Assembly (NCBI RefSeq): GCF_025699485.1
Contig: NZ_JANUXN010000022.1
Coordinates: 1-55,944 of the forward strand
Reading direction: 5' to 3'
DNA: 55,944 bases
From: Thauera carbonicopians
GTDB lineage: Bacteria > Pseudomonadota > Gammaproteobacteria > Burkholderiales > Rhodocyclaceae
Part shown: piece by piece, positions 20,153 through 28,097 of the stretch
How the letters are laid out: each line of letters begins with the position of its first letter
How positions within the stretch are numbered: the first letter of the stretch is position 1
The notes under the pieces: model-generated
Told to the model about the DNA's origin: nothing
Databases searched by the model: none
The model's input: only the letters and a program-made list of their open reading frames with translations
Program-made: the position numbers and the translations under genes

Positions 20153-21055
20153 ATGAGCACCTTGATTACTCCAAGGGACCTGCCTACCTGGGTGCCAGGG
20201 CGGGTCCTGTCCGCCAGTGACGGATTGGGCTGGAAGGATGTGGCTCACCGTGCCTATCTCTATACCGGCCTGGACGTGCTGGTGCCGCCGATGGACCATT
20301 GCATGATCGTCCGCTACCGCAGCGGCCAGACGCCGATGGACCGGCAGGTGGAGGGGCGCTGGAGCCGCAAGAAGTGCGTGCCGGGGGACTTCTCGCTGCT
20401 GACGCATGCGGAGATGTCCCATTGGCACTGGACCGAATGCATCGGCGTGTCCCACACCTATCTCTCGGGCGCGCTGATGCAGCGGGTGGCCGTGGACATC
20501 ACCGGGCGCAGCATGGTCGACGTGCGCCTGCAGGACGTGTTGCAGGCGCAGGACCCGATCGTCACCGGCATCGTCGATGCCATCACCGCGGAAGCGGAGC
20601 AGTGCGCGCCGGGCGGCAACATCTACGTCGAGGGGCTCGCGCTGCAGCTGGCCGTCCATCTGTTCCGCAAGTACGCCTGTATCGACATTCGCGACGACAC
20701 ACCGGTGGGGCCGCTGGCGCCCCGGCAGATACGCCGCCTCGACGAATACGTCGAAACCCATCTGCACAAGGGGATCACCATCGAGCAGATGGCCGAGGCA
20801 ATCGGGCTCGGCGTATGGACCTTCTCCAAGCATTTCCGCGCGAGCACGGGCATGTCTCCCCACGAGTACGTCGTCCGCCGCCGCCTGGAGCGGGCCGCCC
20901 GCCTGCTGACCAGCGATGGCCTGGCGATCAAGCAGGTCGCGGCGATGTGCGGATTCGCCGACCAGGCCCATCTGACGCGGGTGATGCGCAGCAGGATGGG
21001 CACCACGCCGGCCTGTCTCAGAAAGACCGGCGGCCTCAGGCCGGAACAGGAATGA
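20153..21055 (+). CDS. AraC-family transcriptional regulator
   Basis: 300 residues. The N-terminal about 190 residues are a sensor domain without clear assignment. The C-terminal about 100 residues contain two helix-turn-helix motifs: ITIEQMAEAIGLGVWTFSKHF and LAIKQVAAMCGFADQAHLTRVM, ending in MGTTPACLR. Once the mobile element is removed conceptually, this gene is the direct neighbour of the Baeyer-Villiger operon, so it may be its activator, as ChnR-like AraC proteins are for cyclohexanol genes. That link is an inference. Confidence 0.88.
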   Translation: MSTLITPRDLPTWVPGRVLSASDGLGWKDVAHRAYLYTGLDVLVPPMDHCMIVRYRSGQTPMDRQVEGRWSRKKCVPGDFSLLTHAEMSHWHWTECIGVSHTYLSGALMQRVAVDITGRSMVDVRLQDVLQAQDPIVTGIVDAITAEAEQCAPGGNIYVEGLALQLAVHLFRKYACIDIRDDTPVGPLAPRQIRRLDEYVETHLHKGITIEQMAEAIGLGVWTFSKHFRASTGMSPHEYVVRRRLERAARLLTSDGLAIKQVAAMCGFADQAHLTRVMRSRMGTTPACLRKTGGLRPEQE

Positions 21056-21093
21056 AAAATAACCCCCACGCTCCCTCACTGCGTGCGGTCGCT

Positions 21094-21114
21094 GCCCCCC
21101 AAGGGGGCGCTTTT
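21094..21114 (+). terminator. Terminator-like hairpin after the AraC gene
   Basis: GCCCCC (21094-21099) pairs with GGGGGC (21103-21108) across a 3-nt loop, followed by GC and four T residues. The surrounding sequence (CCCCCAAGGGGG) resembles an intergenic repeat common in betaproteobacteria. It ends the araC transcript. Confidence 0.6.
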
Positions 21115-21134
21115 CATCTTGGGGCGGCCCGGCG

Positions 21135-21142
21135 ATGAAAAA
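21135..21142. repeat. Left attachment-site repeat of the integrative element
   Basis: The octamer ATGAAAAA (TTTTTCAT on the other strand). It is the left copy of the direct repeat bounding the element, directly after the host AraC terminator region. From here to the relaxase scrap (about 200 bp) no gene can be supported. Confidence 0.6.
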
Positions 21143-21340
21143 TGTCTGCTGTCAAGCCTTCCGCGTACAAGTGACGTGGAGAGAAAGGCTATACAGCGCA
21201 CGAGGTTAGAGCTGATTTCTGGGTAGCAGGCACCTGAATCATCCAAACGTCAGGGGCCAATTGGGGTGCATTGTCGTGGCAAGCCTTGGCTCTGTGTAGC
21301 GTGGATTGGCGCAGGGTATAGCTGCCGAAACCGGTCTGGA

Positions 21341-21502
21341 TCATCGCCCGATGGCCAGTGCGTGGCCGTTATCTACCGGCGCTCCGTCATGCTCGCCAGC
21401 GGGCGCTACGCGATGCTCGATGACGGCATGGGCTTCTCACTGGTGCTGTGGAAGCCAGTGATTGAGCAGCGGCTGAGGCGGCAGCGCGGCCCTTCGGTTT
21501 GA
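21341..21502 (+). pseudogene. 3' remnant of a VirD2-like relaxase (DUF3363) gene
   Basis: The frame reads SSPDGQCVAVIYRRSVMLAS, then GRYAMLDDGMGFSLVLWKPV, then IEQRLRRQRGPSV and a stop. This is the recognisable C-terminal end of DUF3363 relaxases carried by Tn4371-type elements, in which a stretch after IEQRL (normally about 15-20 residues) is missing. Nothing upstream in frame belongs to the family. It marks the former transfer module of the element. Confidence 0.7.
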
Positions 21503-21574
21503 GCGCCCAGCCTTGCCTCGACGGCCTCCGGGGAGTCCGTCGTTACTCGAAAAATACATGCGCGCGCAAATAGT

Positions 21575-21616
21575 TTGACAGCCCTGTTCCCCTTCATTAA
21601 CATGCATGTGCATGCA
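21575..21616 (+). promoter_or_regulatory. Promoter and palindromic operator of the frnE-SMR-deaminase operon
   Basis: The -35 box TTGACA (21575-21580), a 17-bp spacer and the -10 box TAACAT (21598-21603) form a strong sigma-70-type promoter. TGCATG-TG-CATGCA (21603-21616), an inverted repeat, overlaps the end of the -10 and the expected transcription start. The same palindrome with one mismatch lies in front of marR, so MarR repression is likely. Confidence 0.75.
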
Positions 21617-21633
21617 AATAAATGGAGTCCGAC

Positions 21634-22263
21634 ATGGCATCTATCACCCTCTATTCCGACTATGTGTGCCCCTACTGCCTGCTGGCGGAAAAGGTACTGT
21701 CCGACGCGATCGGCAACCGGGACATCGACATCACATGGCGTCCCTTTGAGCTGCGTCCCGCGCCCGAGCCGACGCTGAGGCCGGAAGACCCGTATCTGCC
21801 GTCCGTCTGGCAGCGATCCGTCTATCCGCTGGCCGAGCGCCTCGGGGTGCCGATCCGCTTGCCTTCCATATCGCCCCAGCCTCGCACGGCAAAGGCGTTT
21901 GAACTGCTGGCGATGGCCCGGGATCAGGGGCTGGACAACGCTTACTCCCTGCGCGTCCTGCGGGCCTTCTTTCAGGAGGATCGGGACATCGGCGAACCTG
22001 AAATTCTGATCGAACTCGCCGCCGAGATCGGGCTTGACCCCGACGAGGCCAGGCATGCGCTCGAAAACGGCACCTATGCCCAGCGCCACCGCGAGGCCCA
22101 ACGCCATGCCCGCGAGGAAATGCAGATCACATCCGTTCCCACCATCGTCGTCGGGAAACAAGTGTTCCGTGGCACGCCGCCTCTGGATGAACTCAAGCGT
22201 GCCATCGACCAGCTCGGAAACGAGCCGAACGGCGATCCGTCGCCAGCATCACCGCAGGGCTGA
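21634..22263 (+). CDS. DsbA-family thiol oxidoreductase, FrnE-like
   Basis: 209 residues without signal peptide, so cytoplasmic. The thioredoxin-fold active site CPYC is at about 14-17 (SDYVCPYCLLAEK) and the cis-Pro loop is SVPTIVVG near residue 175. The helical insertion between matches the FrnE/2-hydroxychromene-isomerase-like DsbA group. GGAG six bases before the ATG at 21634 decides this start over the ATG four codons upstream. It is the first gene of the MarR-controlled operon. A role in thiol or disulfide handling during xenobiotic stress is inferred. Confidence 0.88.
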   Translation: MASITLYSDYVCPYCLLAEKVLSDAIGNRDIDITWRPFELRPAPEPTLRPEDPYLPSVWQRSVYPLAERLGVPIRLPSISPQPRTAKAFELLAMARDQGLDNAYSLRVLRAFFQEDRDIGEPEILIELAAEIGLDPDEARHALENGTYAQRHREAQRHAREEMQITSVPTIVVGKQVFRGTPPLDELKRAIDQLGNEPNGDPSPASPQG

Positions 22264-22327
22264 ACGCCCATTTTCTCGACACATCACCCAACCGCTCTTT
22301 GGGGCATCAACGAAAGGAACCTTCATC

Positions 22328-22648
22328 ATGAGTTGGCTATATCTGAGCATCGCCGTGGTCTTTGAAATTGCGGTAGCCATTTCCGCAGGCAACGCCAAGG
22401 GCTTCACCCGCCTTGGCTGGACAGCCGCCACGCTGGTCAGCGGGGCCATCGCCACCTACTTCCTCAGCCTTGCCTTGCTGACCTTCGATGTCGGCGTGGG
22501 CTATGCCATCTGGACGTCCGTTGCAGGCGTGGGAATCGTCATCCTGGGGGCCTTGTTCTTCGGGCAACGACTGAACCTGAGCAAGTTCTTCGGAATCGCG
22601 CTCGTCATCGGCGGCGTCGTGGGTCTGCGGCTCAGTGGCGCGGCATGA
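22328..22648 (+). CDS. SMR-family efflux subunit, EmrE/QacE-like
   Basis: 106 residues with four transmembrane helices. The essential membrane Glu lies in helix 1 (VVFEIAVAISAG, residue 14). The stretch YAIWTSVAGVGIVILGALFFGQRL and following resembles EmrE-type members. AAGGAA precedes the ATG. It is followed by a second, different SMR gene, so the two probably form a heteromeric pump, as in paired SMR systems. The substrate is unknown; small cationic drugs are typical for the family. Confidence 0.9.
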   Translation: MSWLYLSIAVVFEIAVAISAGNAKGFTRLGWTAATLVSGAIATYFLSLALLTFDVGVGYAIWTSVAGVGIVILGALFFGQRLNLSKFFGIALVIGGVVGLRLSGAA

Positions 22649-22704
22649 AGACGACAGACCACCGCTTCATTCACTCTCAATCTGACATCACAAAGGAATC
22701 CGAC

Positions 22705-23094
22705 ATGACGACTATCAACGAAACCAGCCAAAGCAACGGACGTGCTTGGATCATGCTGCTGCTGGCCAGCGCATTCGAGATTGGCTATGCCCTCAGCGTA
22801 GGGGGCAGCCAGGCATTCACGGTGCTTGGATGGTCGATTTCCGCTGGGGTGTTTTTCCTGCTGACGTTGTATGCGCTCAGTGTTGCGCTGAAAACCATCG
22901 ACGTGGGCATCGGCTATGCCGTATGGGCCGGTATCGGCTCGGTGGGGGCGGCGACTTTCGGTAGCGTCCTGCTTGACCAGCCGCTGACACTGGCCCAGGC
23001 ATGCTGGCTGGCCGTCATCATCGGTGGCGTGGTCTGGTTGAAGCTCGCCGACAGCGCCAAGCTCCAGGCTCACAAAAGTGGGGTTCCCGCATGA
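22705..23094 (+). CDS. SMR-family efflux subunit, SugE/Gdx-like
   Basis: 129 residues. After a polar 12-residue leader come four helices with the conserved Glu in helix 1 (LLLASAFEIGYALSVGG). The segment YAVWAGIGSVGAATFGSVLL is close to SugE/Gdx proteins, many of which export guanidinium. Start 22705 has AAGGAATCC before it; an upstream in-frame ATG at 22645 would overlap the previous stop and give a longer, atypical leader. The stop overlaps the deaminase start by 4 bp (ATGA). Confidence 0.88.
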   Translation: MTTINETSQSNGRAWIMLLLASAFEIGYALSVGGSQAFTVLGWSISAGVFFLLTLYALSVALKTIDVGIGYAVWAGIGSVGAATFGSVLLDQPLTLAQACWLAVIIGGVVWLKLADSAKLQAHKSGVPA

Positions 23095-23570
23095 AGGCGG
23101 GCGATTTCGATGAACGCCTCATGCAGCGCATGAAGGAGGCCGTCGCCTGGTCGGGCGAGCATGTCCACGGCGGTGGCATTCCCTTCACGGCCTTCGTGGT
23201 CGATGCACGCGGCACGGTTCTCGGGCGTGGGGTCAACCGCGTCCGGGAACACCACGACCCGACCGCCCATGCGGAAATCGAAGCCATCCGGGATGCGTGC
23301 CGCACGGCGGGCACGCCATATCTTCGCGGCCTGACGCTGTTGGCCTCGGGGGAACCGTGCGCCATGTGCTACCTGAGCGCGCTCTATGCGGGTATCGAGC
23401 AGGTGTATTTCGCCGTCGATCGGAACGAGGCGGCGGCACATGGGTTCGACTATCGCGGCACCTATGCGCTGTTCTCCCGCGACCCGCTGGCTTGGCAATC
23501 CCCCGCCGTGCGCAAGCTGCCGGTGCCGGAGGGAATGCAACCCTTTCTGGCGTTTCGCTCGCAGACGTGA
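23091..23570 (+). CDS. Nucleoside/nucleobase deaminase-like protein (CMP/dCMP deaminase fold)
   Basis: 159 residues. The zinc and catalytic motifs are intact: HAEIEAI (His-Ala-Glu, about residues 62-64) and PCAMC (about 92-96). The overall layout resembles guanine deaminase/TadA-type single-domain enzymes. The start overlaps the stop of the SugE-like gene (ATGA), so the enzyme is translationally coupled to the exporter pair. Deamination of an amino-substituted base or analogue is the likely chemistry; the substrate cannot be read from sequence. Confidence 0.88.
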   Translation: MKAGDFDERLMQRMKEAVAWSGEHVHGGGIPFTAFVVDARGTVLGRGVNRVREHHDPTAHAEIEAIRDACRTAGTPYLRGLTLLASGEPCAMCYLSALYAGIEQVYFAVDRNEAAAHGFDYRGTYALFSRDPLAWQSPAVRKLPVPEGMQPFLAFRSQT

Positions 23571-23589
23571 GCGCCACAGGGTGGGCCTC

Positions 23590-23619
23590 TTGACGTGCTT
23601 GCATGGGCATACATATGAG
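23590..23619 (+). promoter_or_regulatory. marR promoter with operator palindrome
   Basis: TTGACG (23590-23595) is a -35 candidate, with TATGAG about 18 bp downstream as a weak -10. Between them lies TGCATG-GG-CATACA (23600-23613), the same inverted repeat as at the operon's first promoter with one changed base. This suggests MarR binds both sites and represses itself. Confidence 0.65.
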
Positions 23620-23657
23620 AAAATGGATCGTCCGTCGTTCAATAGGAGTACGCGCCG

Positions 23658-24071
23658 GTGACGTCAAAGAAAAGCGATGCTTGGCTCATGCTGATCCAGA
23701 TCGTCGCCAACGTCGAAGCCGATCTGGTCAAGGTGCTGCAAGCCCGGCATGGGCTTGGCCTGTCGGAATACCGCGCACTGGAAATACTGGCCCGGTCGCA
23801 GAACTCCGAACTGCGCATGCAGGATCTGGCTGCGCACCTTGGTCTGAACCAAAGTTCGGTGTCGCGGATGGTCGAACGTCTGGAGCGTTCCGGCTTCACC
23901 GTCCGCGATCTGTGCCCGGACGACAAGCGGGGGGTTTACACGGTGCTGACCAAAGACGGACGCACACGCCTCGAAAGCGCGCAGCCCGACTACGAGAAAG
24001 CATTGGCGGCTGCGCTCAAGGCGCATGGCGGCGAAAAGTTGCTGGCAATGCAAGGCGCGAAGGCGCGATAG
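23658..24071 (+). CDS. MarR-family transcriptional regulator
   Basis: 137 residues from a GTG start with AGGAG nine bases upstream (23644-23648). The winged helix-turn-helix is clear: LRMQDLAAHLGLNQSSVSRMVERLERSGF, followed by the wing with the family's DxR-like DDKRGVYTVLT. It is the last gene of the cassette. Shared palindromes upstream of frnE and of this gene point to local autorepression lifted by a small molecule, the classical MarR mode. Confidence 0.92.
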   Translation: MTSKKSDAWLMLIQIVANVEADLVKVLQARHGLGLSEYRALEILARSQNSELRMQDLAAHLGLNQSSVSRMVERLERSGFTVRDLCPDDKRGVYTVLTKDGRTRLESAQPDYEKALAAALKAHGGEKLLAMQGAKAR

Positions 24072-24177
24072 GCCATGCGTTGAGCCTTGCCAACAGGGCG
24101 AGGCTGATTGATGAGTGTTGTGTGCTCGCTGCGCGCTCAGCCAGCCGGGCGCGGTTCGTCATCGGCCATGAGGTCAG

Positions 24178-25077
24178 ATGATGGAACTCCGACATCTACG
24201 CTGCTTTCTCGCCGTGGCCGAAGAACTCCATTTCGCCCGCGCCGCCGAGCGCCTGCACATCGAGCAGTCGCCGCTGTCGCGAGCCATCAAGGAGTTGGAA
24301 GAAGACTTGGGCGTGCGCCTGTTCATCCGAACCACACGCAGCACCCGCCTGTCGCGTGCCGGGCAGGTCTTCAAGGAGCATGTGCCGCGCATCTTCACCG
24401 CCTTGCAGCAGGCCCGCGAGGGAGCCAAAGCGGTGGCCGCCGGCTACGACGGTCAATTGCGCATCGCCCTGTCCGACGGCATCACGCCGCCGCGCCTGGG
24501 TGCCTGCCTGGAGAAGTGCCGGGGCGACGATCCCGAAGTCGGGATTCATCTGGCCGAAATACCGCTGTCGCAGCAGATCGCCGGACTGCGCGAAGACCTC
24601 TACGATGCGGGGTTCGCGCAGTCCGACGACGTGGGCGATGGCCTGCTGGCGGTGCCTGCCTGGCATGACCCGCTGGTGGTGGCAGTGCCAGCCAGACATC
24701 CACTGCTGACCCACAAACGCATCCCGCTGGAAGAAGTCCTGCGCTATCCGCTGGCGATGGGCGACCCGCATGTGTGCGAAGGCTACTGTTGGCAAATTGC
24801 ACGGGTGCTGCACACCGTGGACACGGAGCCGCTGGTGGCGGAAGAAGTCGCCTCGCTCGACCTGATGCTGACCCTGGTTTCGGCCGGCTATGCCTTGGCG
24901 CTGCTCGGGGCGTCGCAGATCGCTGCCAGCCGTTCGCCGGACATAGCCAGCCGCCCGCTGTCGGGCATCTCCCCGGCTCTGACGACCTATCTTCTGCGGG
25001 CCGACACGGCTCCCTCTGAACCGCTGTCCCGCTTCATTAAGCGGGCCATTTCGGGCGTTTCTGGCCCGCACCGCTGA
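24178..25077 (+). CDS. LysR-family transcriptional regulator carried by the element
   Basis: 299 residues starting MMELRHLRCFLAVAEELHFARAAERLHIEQSPLSRAIKELEEDLG, a textbook LysR helix-turn-helix, followed by a substrate-binding domain to the C-terminus. A second ATG one codon downstream is equally possible. It lies on the integrative remnant between marR and the integrase region. A neighbouring target gene is not obvious; the cargo operon already has a MarR regulator, so this LysR may control host genes or genes since lost. Confidence 0.9.
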   Translation: MMELRHLRCFLAVAEELHFARAAERLHIEQSPLSRAIKELEEDLGVRLFIRTTRSTRLSRAGQVFKEHVPRIFTALQQAREGAKAVAAGYDGQLRIALSDGITPPRLGACLEKCRGDDPEVGIHLAEIPLSQQIAGLREDLYDAGFAQSDDVGDGLLAVPAWHDPLVVAVPARHPLLTHKRIPLEEVLRYPLAMGDPHVCEGYCWQIARVLHTVDTEPLVAEEVASLDLMLTLVSAGYALALLGASQIAASRSPDIASRPLSGISPALTTYLLRADTAPSEPLSRFIKRAISGVSGPHR

Positions 25078-25499
25078 TTCACTTCCCGAGATTCGATGCG
25101 CTGCGGCTCCGGCGCAGCACGGCGTGCTGCTGCGCAGGTGGCACGCGGGCAAACCAGCATTCATGCGGTTTGGTGAATCTCGACGGCACGATGCCATCGA
25201 CGCGGCGTGCCGCGCTTCCCCCATGTGCAGACTGGCTTCGACGCGACCCCGTGCCGCGTCCTTTTGTCTTGCCTTCCGCCGCTTCAAGCGCCACGGCACG
25301 CAAACTCGGTGTGGCGGCGGCGCGGCATGGGCCACTGTCTGCACGTGGGACGGCTGCGCCGAGTGCGATTTGGCGCGCAGTGTGAATGCACGCGCAATGA
25401 CAGGCCGGAGACACGACGCAATGCACGCCGATGGCTTCATGATGAGCGGCGACGATGCCAGCGACCACGCTTTCGGCTGACGTGGCTTTCTAAATGCTG
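25078..25499. other. Region without a supportable gene
   Basis: Several open frames of 70-130 codons exist in different frames, but none has a family resemblance, a convincing ribosome site or a consistent reading direction. The stretch is probably degraded element DNA between the LysR gene and the integrase. Confidence 0.5.
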
Positions 25500-25542
25500 C
25501 CGCCCCTGTTTTGCGCACGTTGTCGTGCGTAAAACAGGGCGG
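25500..25542. terminator. Long near-perfect hairpin downstream of the integrase gene
   Basis: The left arm 25500-25519 (CCGCCCCTGTTTTGCGCACG) pairs with the right arm 25524-25542 (CGTGCGTAAAACAGGGCGG) across a 4-nt loop TTGT, with one G-T pair and one extra C. It lies 36 bp after the integrase stop, so it is a likely terminator, although no T-tract follows on the minus strand. A recombination-site role is an alternative. Confidence 0.5.
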
Positions 25543-25578
25543 AATCTTGTAATCGGAATGCAGAACGGAGCGGCTATG

Positions 25579-26790
25579 TCATGCGGCAGTGGTGCTTTCC
25601 TGCGCGGCTGGCGGTTTGCCCATGACAACGGTTTTGCGCCGGTTCGCCACAAGCTCCGCCGCCTTGCGCACCGGGTCGTCTTCGGTGTGAACGTAGTGCA
25701 TGAACATCGCTACGGTCTTGTGCGCGGTCAGTGCCATGCCGACCTTGATCGGGATGCCCGAGTTGGCAATGTCGGTCGTCGAGCGATGGCGGATGCCGTG
25801 CGTGCCGACATGCGTTGCGCCTGCGGCCTTGAGGGTGCGGCTCCAACCGCCGTAGTACTCGCCTTCGGTGAGGGCCTTGGTCGGGTCGTTCGGTGAGGGC
25901 AGCACGTGGGGGCAGCCGTCTTGGCGTGGCGCTGTTAAGAGCAGCCGGTAGGCTTCCTCGCTCATGGGCTTGGACATGCCGCCGGTTTTGCTGTCGGGCC
26001 AGACGACACGGCGGTTTTCCAGATCGACCCATTGCCATTGCAGCGAGATGATTTCCGAACGGCGGCCCGCGAACTCGAATTGCAGGCGGATTGCCAGCGG
26101 GATGGTGTAGTGCTCCAGCCCTTCGGCTTCCAGGCGCTCCAGGTAGCGGAACAGCTTGCCCATGTCTTCGTCGCTGATGAGGTGGGTGGCCTTGCCATCC
26201 GGGTACACCGGGACATGGCGGCAAGGGTTGGTGCCGTCGGGCCGGTAGCCCCACACCTCGGCCAGGTTGAACATGCGGCGCATGACGCTGAACGTGCGGT
26301 TCGCATCGGCGGGCTTGTGCGCCATCTTCTTCATCGCTGCGGCCACGTCGGAACGCTTCACGTCCTGCACCTTCATGCGGCCCAACATCGGGATGATGTT
26401 GCGGTCGATGGCGCTCTGGTAGCCTTTCTGCGTGCTGGGTTTGTTGCGCTGCTTGGAGTAGTCCCCCATGAACTTGCCGCACAGTTCCTTGACCGTGGGG
26501 GCGGCACGGGAAGCAGCCTTGGCCGCGCTGGGGTCGCCGCCCCGGCGTACCTCGGCCATCCATTCCTGCGCCAGGGCGCGGGCTTGCTCGACGGTCAGTT
26601 CCCCGTACAGGCCCAGGGCGGGCTTGCGGTGCTCGCCCGCGTTGGTGCGGTACTGGAGCATGAATACCTTGCGGCCCGCCGGTGTAACCTTGCACATAAA
26701 ACCCGGTACGACGGTATCCCGCAACTCGATGGCCTGCGCCTGGGGTTGCGCCGCATCGACGGCGGACTTGGTGAGCTTCAGCTTTGCCAT
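25579..26790 (-). CDS. int: Tyrosine recombinase / integrase
   Basis: 403 residues. An arm-type DNA-binding N-terminus (about 1-95) and a core-binding domain (about 98-185) precede the catalytic domain. The active residues are visible as Arg243 or Arg244 (AGRRSE), Lys268 (SKTG), His331-x-x-Arg334 (HGIRH), His357 (AHKT) and Tyr366 (MHYVH). GAGGAG before the ATG at 26790 fixes the start. It sits about 180 bp from the right att repeat and points into the element, as integrases of integrative elements usually do. It appears intact, so excision remains conceivable. Confidence 0.93.
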   Translation of the reverse strand: MAKLKLTKSAVDAAQPQAQAIELRDTVVPGFMCKVTPAGRKVFMLQYRTNAGEHRKPALGLYGELTVEQARALAQEWMAEVRRGGDPSAAKAASRAAPTVKELCGKFMGDYSKQRNKPSTQKGYQSAIDRNIIPMLGRMKVQDVKRSDVAAAMKKMAHKPADANRTFSVMRRMFNLAEVWGYRPDGTNPCRHVPVYPDGKATHLISDEDMGKLFRYLERLEAEGLEHYTIPLAIRLQFEFAGRRSEIISLQWQWVDLENRRVVWPDSKTGGMSKPMSEEAYRLLLTAPRQDGCPHVLPSPNDPTKALTEGEYYGGWSRTLKAAGATHVGTHGIRHRSTTDIANSGIPIKVGMALTAHKTVAMFMHYVHTEDDPVRKAAELVANRRKTVVMGKPPAAQESTTAA

Positions 26791-26965
26791 GATGACTCCT
26801 CGGAAAGACCCGTTTCCCAGGGGCCTCATAGGGGCCGACAAAGAGAAAGGCCGGTCAGGTTTCGGAATGCACCGGCATATGCTTGGCTCACCTAAGTGAT
26901 TGATAAACCTTCTGTATCTGGCTTCGGCGCAGTCCAGCGCATGGCCGGGCTGGAGTCATGGTGAA

Positions 26966-26973
26966 ATGAAAAA
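26966..26973. repeat. Right attachment-site repeat of the integrative element
   Basis: A second direct copy of ATGAAAAA. It overlaps the A-run that forms the T-tract of the downstream gene's terminator on the minus strand. Between the integrase start and this point (about 175 bp) no gene is seen. Confidence 0.6.
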
Positions 26974-27003
26974 AAGCCGCGGTCTCGTCAAAGAGGCCGC
27001 GGC
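26969..27003 (-). terminator. Rho-independent terminator of the BVMO operon
   Basis: On the minus strand, GCCGCGGCCTC pairs with GAGACCGCGGC (27003-26993 with 26986-26976), followed by seven T residues (complement of 26969-26975). It lies about 45 bp after the stop of the MetX-fold hydrolase, the last gene of the BVMO operon. Confidence 0.9.
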
Positions 27004-27047
27004 CTGCAAGCCCCGCCGCGGATGCGGCAGGGGGCACGCTGGACACG

Positions 27048-28097
27048 TCAGACGCTGGGCTGAGCGTCCAGCAACTGCCGGAGATTGGTGTCCAGTTCGG
27101 CGATGCAGTTGGCGTCGGTGCCGAACAGCGCCAGGTGGCCGTCGATGCTGTTCAGCGGGCGGAATTCACTGTCGGCGATCTGCTTCTGCTCGGCCAGGCA
27201 GTCGTTGGGCGGGAAGAACATGTCGTGGCTGATCGGCATCACGAAGGTCTTCGCCTTGATGCGGCCGAGCGCCGCGGCCAGGTCGCCGCCGGTATGGCGG
27301 CTGACGTCGCCGCGCTGCCATTTCCAGATCATGCACAGCAGGTTGTTCGGGTCCATCGGCGCGAAGTAGCCGGTCATGAATTGATCGACGAAGCTCTCCA
27401 TGCTGTCGAAGCCCAGCGCCTTGTGGCGGCCGCCGCGGAAGAAGTCGGTGCTCCAGCCCATCACCGTCCACAGCTTGGCATGGCGGCGCAGGCCGGCCGC
27501 CATCTCGGCGGAGTCGGCGTAGTTGCCGTCGCGGAAGGCCGGATCGGTGACGATGGTGTCGATCAGGGTTTCGCCGAACATGAAGTCGTGTTCGGTGTTG
27601 CGGGCCGTGCCGGCGATCGGGGCGGCGCGTTCGACCATGTCCGGATGGCGCACCGCCCATTCGTAGGTTTGCTGGGCGCCCATCGAGCCACCCACGACCA
27701 GGGCCAGGCGTTCGATGCCGAAATGCTGGGTGAGCAGGCGGTGCTGGGCCCGGACGTCGTCGCCGATGCGCACGCGGGGGAATTTCGGCCCGGCGATTTC
27801 CGCCGGCGCGTTGCTGGGCGACAGCGACAGGCCGCTGCCGATCTGGTTGACGACGATGATGAAGTAGCGGTCCGGGTCCAGCGCACGGCCGGGGCCGATA
27901 TAGACCTGCTCCATGATCTTGCTCGTGCCCGAATACCAGGTCGGGACGAGGATCGCGTTGTCGCGCGCGGTGTTGAGCCGGCCGTGGGTGGCGACGGCCA
28001 GCGTGCAGTCTTCGAGCACGCCGCCTTCCTCGAGTTCGAGCCGGCCGATGCTGACGAGCTTGTAGGGGCCGTGGTTTTCCTGGGTGTAGTAGGTCAT
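27048..28097 (-). CDS. Alpha/beta hydrolase of the homoserine O-acetyltransferase (MetX) fold
   Basis: 349 residues. The nucleophile elbow is GGSMGAQ with Ser138; the acid and base are likely Asp in the PISHDMFFPP segment and His in DGHLALFG near the C-terminus. The fold is that of MetX, but the context is catabolic: last gene of a Baeyer-Villiger operon without methionine genes. A hydrolase acting on the lactone or ester made by the monooxygenase is therefore more likely than acetyl transfer. GAGGAC lies upstream of the ATG at 28097. Confidence 0.85.
   Translation of the reverse strand: MTYYTQENHGPYKLVSIGRLELEEGGVLEDCTLAVATHGRLNTARDNAILVPTWYSGTSKIMEQVYIGPGRALDPDRYFIIVVNQIGSGLSLSPSNAPAEIAGPKFPRVRIGDDVRAQHRLLTQHFGIERLALVVGGSMGAQQTYEWAVRHPDMVERAAPIAGTARNTEHDFMFGETLIDTIVTDPAFRDGNYADSAEMAAGLRRHAKLWTVMGWSTDFFRGGRHKALGFDSMESFVDQFMTGYFAPMDPNNLLCMIWKWQRGDVSRHTGGDLAAALGRIKAKTFVMPISHDMFFPPNDCLAEQKQIADSEFRPLNSIDGHLALFGTDANCIAELDTNLRQLLDAQPSV

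Follow-up and report, generated by a model that had tools for sequence, protein, structure and literature searches.

A short Tn4371-type element and its ends

The stretch of DNA considered here, hereafter the window, is the whole 55,944-nucleotide sequence from Thauera carbonicopians (contig NZ_JANUXN010000022.1), and our subject is an element at 21135-26973 that resembles the integrative and conjugative elements (ICEs) of the Tn4371 family. A sequence-only reading had proposed a reduced Tn4371-type derivative of roughly 5.8 kb that kept its integrase and cargo, and both the homology of the ends and a test for ICE core genes bear this out. Beyond that reading we add a segment resembling an origin of transfer (oriT), the identity of a LysR-type gene as traR, an inversion, and the recognition of the left octamer as the end of a host repeat. 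The features of the locus are listed below.

21051-21142, plus strand: dispersed host intergenic repeat (83-bp unit, ATGAAAAA at both ends), recognised from its genome matches; outside the element except for the octamer
21135-21142, no strand: attachment (att) octamer of the far (traG/trb-side) end, from octamer count and ICE end alignment
21143-21219, no strand: far-end sequence of a Tn4371-family ICE, matching that of full ICEs at about 75% identity from the octamer onward
21309-21488, plus strand: C-terminal scrap of a DUF3363 relaxase gene, from a DNA match; inverted relative to int
21575-21617, plus strand: promoter-like site and MarR-operator-like palindrome (21603-21617) before dsbA
21634-22263, plus strand: DsbA-family oxidoreductase (PF01323, 1.1e-32); alternative start 21622
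22328-22648, plus strand: first SMR transporter (PF00893)
22645-23094, plus strand: second SMR transporter (PF00893 from residue 34); the start may be 22705
23091-23570, plus strand: nucleoside/cytidine-type deaminase (PF00383)
23599-23613, plus strand: second MarR-operator-like palindrome, before marR, from a palindrome search
23658-24071, plus strand: MarR-family regulator (PF12802)
24178-25077, plus strand: traR-type LysR regulator of Tn4371-family ICEs, co-directional with the cargo and inverted relative to int
25184-25361, minus strand: oriT-homologous region between traR and int, in canonical orientation relative to int
25184-25212, minus strand: REPT2-like inverted repeat CGGCACG/CGTGCCG, read from the sequence
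25240-25260, minus strand: REPT1-type inverted repeat with an 8-bp stem, from hairpin analysis and covariation
25259-25279, minus strand: conserved block with CAAAAGG, its function assigned by homology (PMC11448139)
25500-25542, no strand: strong 43-nt hairpin (z about -8) between the oriT segment and the 3' end of int, aligned in three related loci (L040, L064 and L200)
25579-26790, minus strand: intact Tn4371-type tyrosine integrase of 403 amino acids, from an intact open reading frame, family match and relatives
26966-26973, no strand: att octamer of the integrase-side end, from the octamer and alignment with relatives
26976-27003, minus strand: host terminator-like hairpin of a convergent operon (11-bp stem), whose T-tract holds the octamer

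We note that ATGAAAAA stands in direct orientation at 21135-21142 and 26966-26973 with the intact recombinase gene beside the right copy, as first read, and that octamers of this kind are the published direct repeats of Tn4371-family ICEs (PMC2789088, including its Table 4). An octamer was found at the corresponding place before the integrase gene in 76 of 80 loci, the best 80 of 153 relatives found: TTTTTCAT in 28, TTTTTTAT in 6, TTTTTTGT in 41 and TTTTTCGT in 1, with something other in 4. Within the window ATGAAAAA occurs seven times against 0.44 expected from shuffles, one copy being at 21052, 83 bp beyond the left end. The octamer pair alone is therefore weak evidence and was dropped as sole evidence, all the more as its left copy lies within a host repeat; what convinces is the homology of the ends.

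At the integrase side, alignment with relatives reaches as far as the octamer. The left end matches the distant far end of full ICEs from the first base of the octamer in 8 of the 44 genomes searched, which are those behind 46 of the 80 integrase loci, the match covering bases 1-85 in seven genomes and 1-28 in one. The suggested search for full ICEs with a related integrase yielded elements in Variovorax and Xenophilus which, read end to end, span about 57 kb between two copies of TTTTTCAT. We considered 21052 as the left boundary since a same-genus genome aligns to 21059, and ruled it out: ICE end homology begins at 21135, and 21051-21142 is the dispersed host repeat. That the octamers are coincidental, an unrelated integrase happening to lie next to the cargo, might be argued from the abundance of the octamer and the place of its left copy, but both ends align with ICE ends to the octamer and the same-genus genome is without the whole insert; this explanation is refuted by the end homology, and we give it a negligible chance. 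On these alignments the element is confirmed as real, about 5.8 kb long with ends at 21135 and 26973.

What was kept and lost from an ICE

In the published definition a Tn4371-family ICE has an integrase with more than 70% protein homology to intTn4371, comparable maintenance and transfer genes that follow a comparable order and, in most elements, a direct-repeat octamer TTTTTCAT, TTTTTTAT or TTTTTTGT at its ends (PMC2789088). The element has the octamer pair, and its integrase is 79% identical in amino acids to that of the PA7 locus, which places it above 70% with PA7 as the comparator; the octamer of the PA7 locus is TTTTTTGT, as it is in Table 4 of PMC2789088. The maintenance and transfer genes are a different matter. 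The relaxase scrap, seen near the left copy from the outset, corresponds to residues 585-650 of a 667-residue relaxase and scores above the DUF3363 cut-off, and these 66 of 667 residues are all that was recovered, with none of ten other core proteins matching the element (TraG, TrbB, TrbE, TrbJ, ParA, ParB, RepA, a DUF2285 protein, a helix-turn-helix protein taken as Xis, and TraF). The type IV secretion system (T4SS) is represented in this test by TraG, TrbB, TrbE and TrbJ, and all 11 queries, the ten and the relaxase, match a full ICE.

The arrangement differs as well. Full ICEs run in the order int, accessory genes, parB, rep/par genes, signal peptidase (traF), oriT region and relaxase, followed by an accessory region, traR (the LysR gene), eexN, traG, the trb genes and the far end; int, relaxase and traR are co-oriented in both elements read end to end, and the position and direction of traR are described as conserved in the family (PMC11448139). 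In the window int and the far end keep these positions, and the block from the relaxase C-terminus through the cargo to traR is inverted, so that traR is inverted relative to int and the oriT segment. A simple deletion derivative is ruled out by this inversion of the block between the ends. Judged by gene content and order, the element is not a Tn4371 ICE: the maintenance and transfer genes were not found, and traR is inverted.

The earlier description of the element as transfer-deficient is right in that the search for transfer genes found none, but the element has kept traR and a segment homologous to oriT, in an architecture that recurs in three other genomes. The oriT of ICEKKS102Tn4677 was mapped experimentally to the traF-traI intergenic region, in what the authors state is the first identification of a Tn4371-family oriT, and it contains a conserved 20-bp sequence with CAAAAGG beside the inverted repeat REPT1 (Matsumoto et al. 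2024, PMC11448139). In the window, positions 25201-25279 are 90% identical to the intergenic region that directly precedes the relaxase gene of full ICEs and 25339-25361 are identical to it, and CAAAAGG followed by a hairpin with an 8-bp stem lies at the corresponding place. We regard the segment as homologous to the published oriT by position, CAAAAGG and repeat rather than by a comparison of the full 20 bp.

The REPT1-type stem shows covariation across 18 distinct sequences, namely the window, L040, L064, L200 and 14 matches in other records, three of which (L159, L160 and L162) are confirmed as lying upstream of a relaxase gene. The covariation score is 0.288, compared with 0.154 for shuffled alignments (none of 500 shuffles reaches it) and at most 0.125 when the stem is slid; 80% of cells are paired, and changes on both sides occur in 14 cells, against 5.1 when shuffled. 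No Rfam match was found in 20900-27200 up to E = 1. Between int and the aligned region that holds the 43-nt hairpin, L040 and L064 carry extra cargo.

Sister elements and a possible helper

The inverted layout and the traR-oriT junction recur, in one collinear alignment, in three further elements with matching octamers at their ends. These are an 8094-bp element of Pusillimonas sp. T2 (L040, TTTTTTAT), a 6049-bp element in a metagenome-assembled genome labelled Enterobacterales (L064, TTTTTCAT), and a 13930-bp element in another genus of the same family as the window host (G123, TTTTTCAT). The ten core proteins found no match in L040 or L064 and a single one, a TraF remnant, in G123. In all four elements the cargo lies upstream of traR and co-directional with it, and the cargo differs. 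As read from translations alone, L040 has SDR- and TetR-like genes, with ATPase- and subtilase-like genes between int and the oriT segment; L064 has a methionine aminopeptidase-like gene with MarR- and monooxygenase-like genes; and G123 has an SDR-like gene with restriction-modification-like genes and an IS110-like transposase. The relaxase scrap begins at nearly the same residue in the window (585) and in L064 (583).

The window TraR is at most 72% identical in amino acids to the TraR copies of ICEs, as compared to 87% and 80% for those of sister elements. TraR of the window, L040 and G123 form one clade (support 100/99) in a tree of 35 rows, 25 of them different, that was built from part of the matches listed and five further loci. 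The three integrases group in the same branching order at 85/85 (79 rows, 56 different); L064 was left out of both trees. The intact traR genes are under purifying selection, with dN/dS of 0.11-0.15: 0.106 between the window and L040, and 0.145 (0.130/0.897) between the window and G123. For int the window-L040 value is 0.115, and dS across traR and int is 0.77-0.90. The shared junction suggests that the inverted layout is ancestral, and if so the constraint acted on elements that were already short.

Members of this group are likely under-counted, since only two candidates were scored in most genomes of the large scans, 80 of 153 relatives were taken, and at least 8 kb downstream of int was available in 64 of the 80 loci. 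A further candidate, L243 (in G224), was dropped, being without integrase and without oriT core.

Since three other genomes have the inverted architecture with cargo of their own, we read the element as belonging to an old helper-dependent mobile lineage rather than as a local deletion relic. More precisely, and with a probability of roughly 0.7, we propose an oriT-only integrative and mobilizable element of the iOriT type, which would not be self-transmissible, would have been reduced long ago from a Tn4371-family ICE, and would depend on a helper. The element retains the two octamer-bearing ends of an ICE, the integrase, the oriT-homologous segment and traR; we infer that mobilisation would draw on the excisionase, relaxase and T4SS of a helper ICE. 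In such a scheme the element would stay silent until a Tn4371-type ICE arrives, would be excised as a circle by its own integrase together with the Xis of that resident ICE, would be nicked at its oriT by the helper relaxase and exported by the helper T4SS, and would be inserted in the new cell by its integrase at an octamer of the form TTTTTYAT, in many cases one lying within the T-tract of an intrinsic terminator. Exchange of cargo would take place just upstream of traR.

Alternatively, the element might be a decaying ICE remnant in which a deletion and an inversion left int, the ends and scraps, with oriT and traR carried passively and immobile. The relaxase scrap standing without any other core gene would fit this, as would a genome without a helper relaxase and the disruption of int or traR in two sister copies. 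It is difficult to reconcile with the finding of one shared inversion and traR-oriT junction in several genomes, where the elements have matching octamer pairs but their own cargo, or with purifying selection on traR and int over a dS of 0.77-0.90, and we consider it unlikely.

Several observations weigh against the helper-dependent reading. No helper of the Tn4371 family seems to be present in this genome now: a search for DUF3363 relaxases found none beyond the scrap, and the T4SS encoded on another contig (C23) is distantly related (TrbE 24% identical over 351 residues), which led us to drop the idea of a resident helper. No recombination directionality factor (RDF) of its own was found with the one query used, the ICE helix-turn-helix protein taken as Xis. 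The oriT stretch is conserved no more than its neighbours between the window and L040. Integrase and traR both look disrupted in L064; L200 (in G480) is a damaged relative whose integrase has an internal deletion and whose oriT segment is poorly conserved, the nearest sequence standing at about 52%. Support for grouping the integrases of the short elements is moderate, not strong. Finally, none of 103 matching plasmid records and neither of two matching records of an E. coli collection holds a near-identical copy at 80% coverage.

A second kind of short element was also encountered, in L077 (9819-16235) and L095 (9819-16176), with both ends, an integrase resembling that of Tn4371 and genes whose translations look like a flavin reductase, HxlR and NmrA. 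The two loci, from two genera, have 3.6 kb in common at 97% identity, and in the integrase tree neither integrase is the closest to the other; the far octamer of L077 is TTTTTTGA. No traR was found in these elements, their LysR gene being ruled out as such (33% over 122 residues, compared to 68% for the control), and a match to the oriT core with two mismatches lies inside a gene. These loci suggest that short elements with Tn4371 integrases are more than a single accident. They also lend something to the view that the element moves within cells only, or between cells without helper conjugation, its oriT segment being unused, in that int and the ends may spread without traR; as this leaves the retention of traR and oriT in the window-type lineage unexplained, we hold it to be quite improbable.

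The proposed helper-dependent element can be set beside several known systems. It shares with Tn4371, ICEKKS102Tn4677 and the PA7 relative the integrase type, the octamer pair, both ends, the oriT region and a traR downstream of cargo, and differs from them in having a relaxase scrap only, an inverted traR block and about a tenth of the length. The mobilizable genomic islands helped by SXT/R391 elements (MGIVflInd1 type) likewise carry an integrase and a helper-like oriT without conjugation genes, but have their own RDF and respond to the SetCD of the helper (PMC5704250), whereas in our element the Xis query found no RDF, though an unrelated small one may be present, and the transfer activator of the family is encoded by the element itself. 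Cis-mobilizable elements (CIMEs) keep ICE att sites and are without transfer genes, as here, but have also lost the integration genes (PMC5704250); with its integrase reading frame intact, the element falls outside that class. SGI1 and GISul2 depend, or are thought to depend, on the conjugation apparatus of a helper and carry some mating-pair proteins (PMC5704250); none was found in the element. The closest description is that of iOriT hitchers, which are integrated and have an oriT and no relaxase (PMC11389934). The intact integrase frame, the octamer pair and the relative with an empty locus point to chromosomal integration, an oriT is indicated by homology to the mapped region, and no relaxase or mating-pair formation system was detected in a test whose positive control matched throughout. 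The passages of PMC11389934 drawn on give no Tn4371-dependent example, and the literature searched by titles and the starts of abstracts gave no report of oriT-only satellites of Tn4371 ICEs.

Insertion site, cargo and implications

The right end lies, as proposed, in an operon terminator next to araC, with the hairpin at 26976-27003 adjoining the octamer. The predicted empty site, araC joined to the terminator region at the octamer, was found in part. A same-genus genome (G018) is without the element, and there araC directly meets the convergent operon with its alpha/beta-hydrolase gene, the junction falling at the A-run of a terminator-like hairpin. The sequence at this junction is ATAGAAAAA instead of an exact octamer, and the 83-bp repeat is missing there as well. 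The left octamer being the end of that repeat, the target octamer was probably supplied by the host repeat. The repeat has nine matches in its own genome, itself included and several of them partial; the best other copy is 98% identical and likewise bounded by the octamer. Among the flanks of 78 relatives tested, it adjoins the integrase-side end in four (L035, in part, L041, L046 and L047). Several of its copies stand just before terminator-like hairpins (e.g., G000:C48:140050-140142). The repeat with ATGAAAAA-type ends is also found in other betaproteobacteria and beside Tn4371-type insertions, and the full ICE of Xenophilus arseniciresistens (L164, L166) has host repeat on both sides, beyond the octamer alone.

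Among 76 integrase-side sites, one from the window and 75 from relatives, 44 adjoin a GC-rich hairpin, sites common to related loci each being counted separately. Letter-shuffled flanks gave a mean of 4.8 (largest 11), random flank stretches 6.5%, and host T-runs 51 of 507. Tn4371-type integrases appear to favour T-tracts of intrinsic terminators as targets (loci L028-L107 and 26966-27003), and this preference, if it holds, would help explain why insertion is tolerated.

Tn4371-family ICEs often carry degradation and resistance genes. The cargo genes of the element (dsbA, two SMR genes, the deaminase gene and marR) form a cluster that recurs, with DNA identity of about 70-75%, on Paracoccus, Labrenzia and Roseibium plasmids, and one Streptomyces plasmid carries part of it. 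On plasmid p2 of Paracoccus sp. TOH it lies upstream of another LysR gene, traG and trb, resembling the accessory slot of a Tn4371 ICE; with TraR that LysR protein has just 37% identity over 169 residues. In all three clusters read (window, Paracoccus and Labrenzia), dsbA and marR each have a palindrome of the type TTGCATGNNCATRCA before them, with at most one or two mismatches, and MarR is therefore likely to control the cargo through these predicted operators. The promoter match before dsbA is no better than those of shuffles.

A terminator scan found no plus-strand terminator between marR and traR, so transcription of the cargo may run into traR; the scan gave four sites in all, against 4.7 in shuffles, including one plus-strand site inside dsbA at 21948. 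In ICEKKS102Tn4677 traR is transcribed together with the cargo operon, and TraR raises xis transcription, excision and transfer (PMC11448139). As TraR activates these steps in one tested ICE, the element may be able to switch on its helper. We tentatively speculate, as a possibility we would not favour, that such satellites carry the helper's transfer activator so that induction of the cargo would raise satellite TraR, which in turn would raise the helper's xis and transfer genes, the passenger thereby timing its helper. To carry a transfer activator would be an unusual relation between helper and passenger.

ICEs of the Tn4371 family occur widely among beta- and gammaproteobacteria (PMC11448139). 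The octamer pair, integrase, oriT core and inverted traR offer a signature by which further elements may be recognised, and if such short elements do ride on Tn4371 ICEs, some “orphan” islands with a Tn4371 integrase would be mobile after all.

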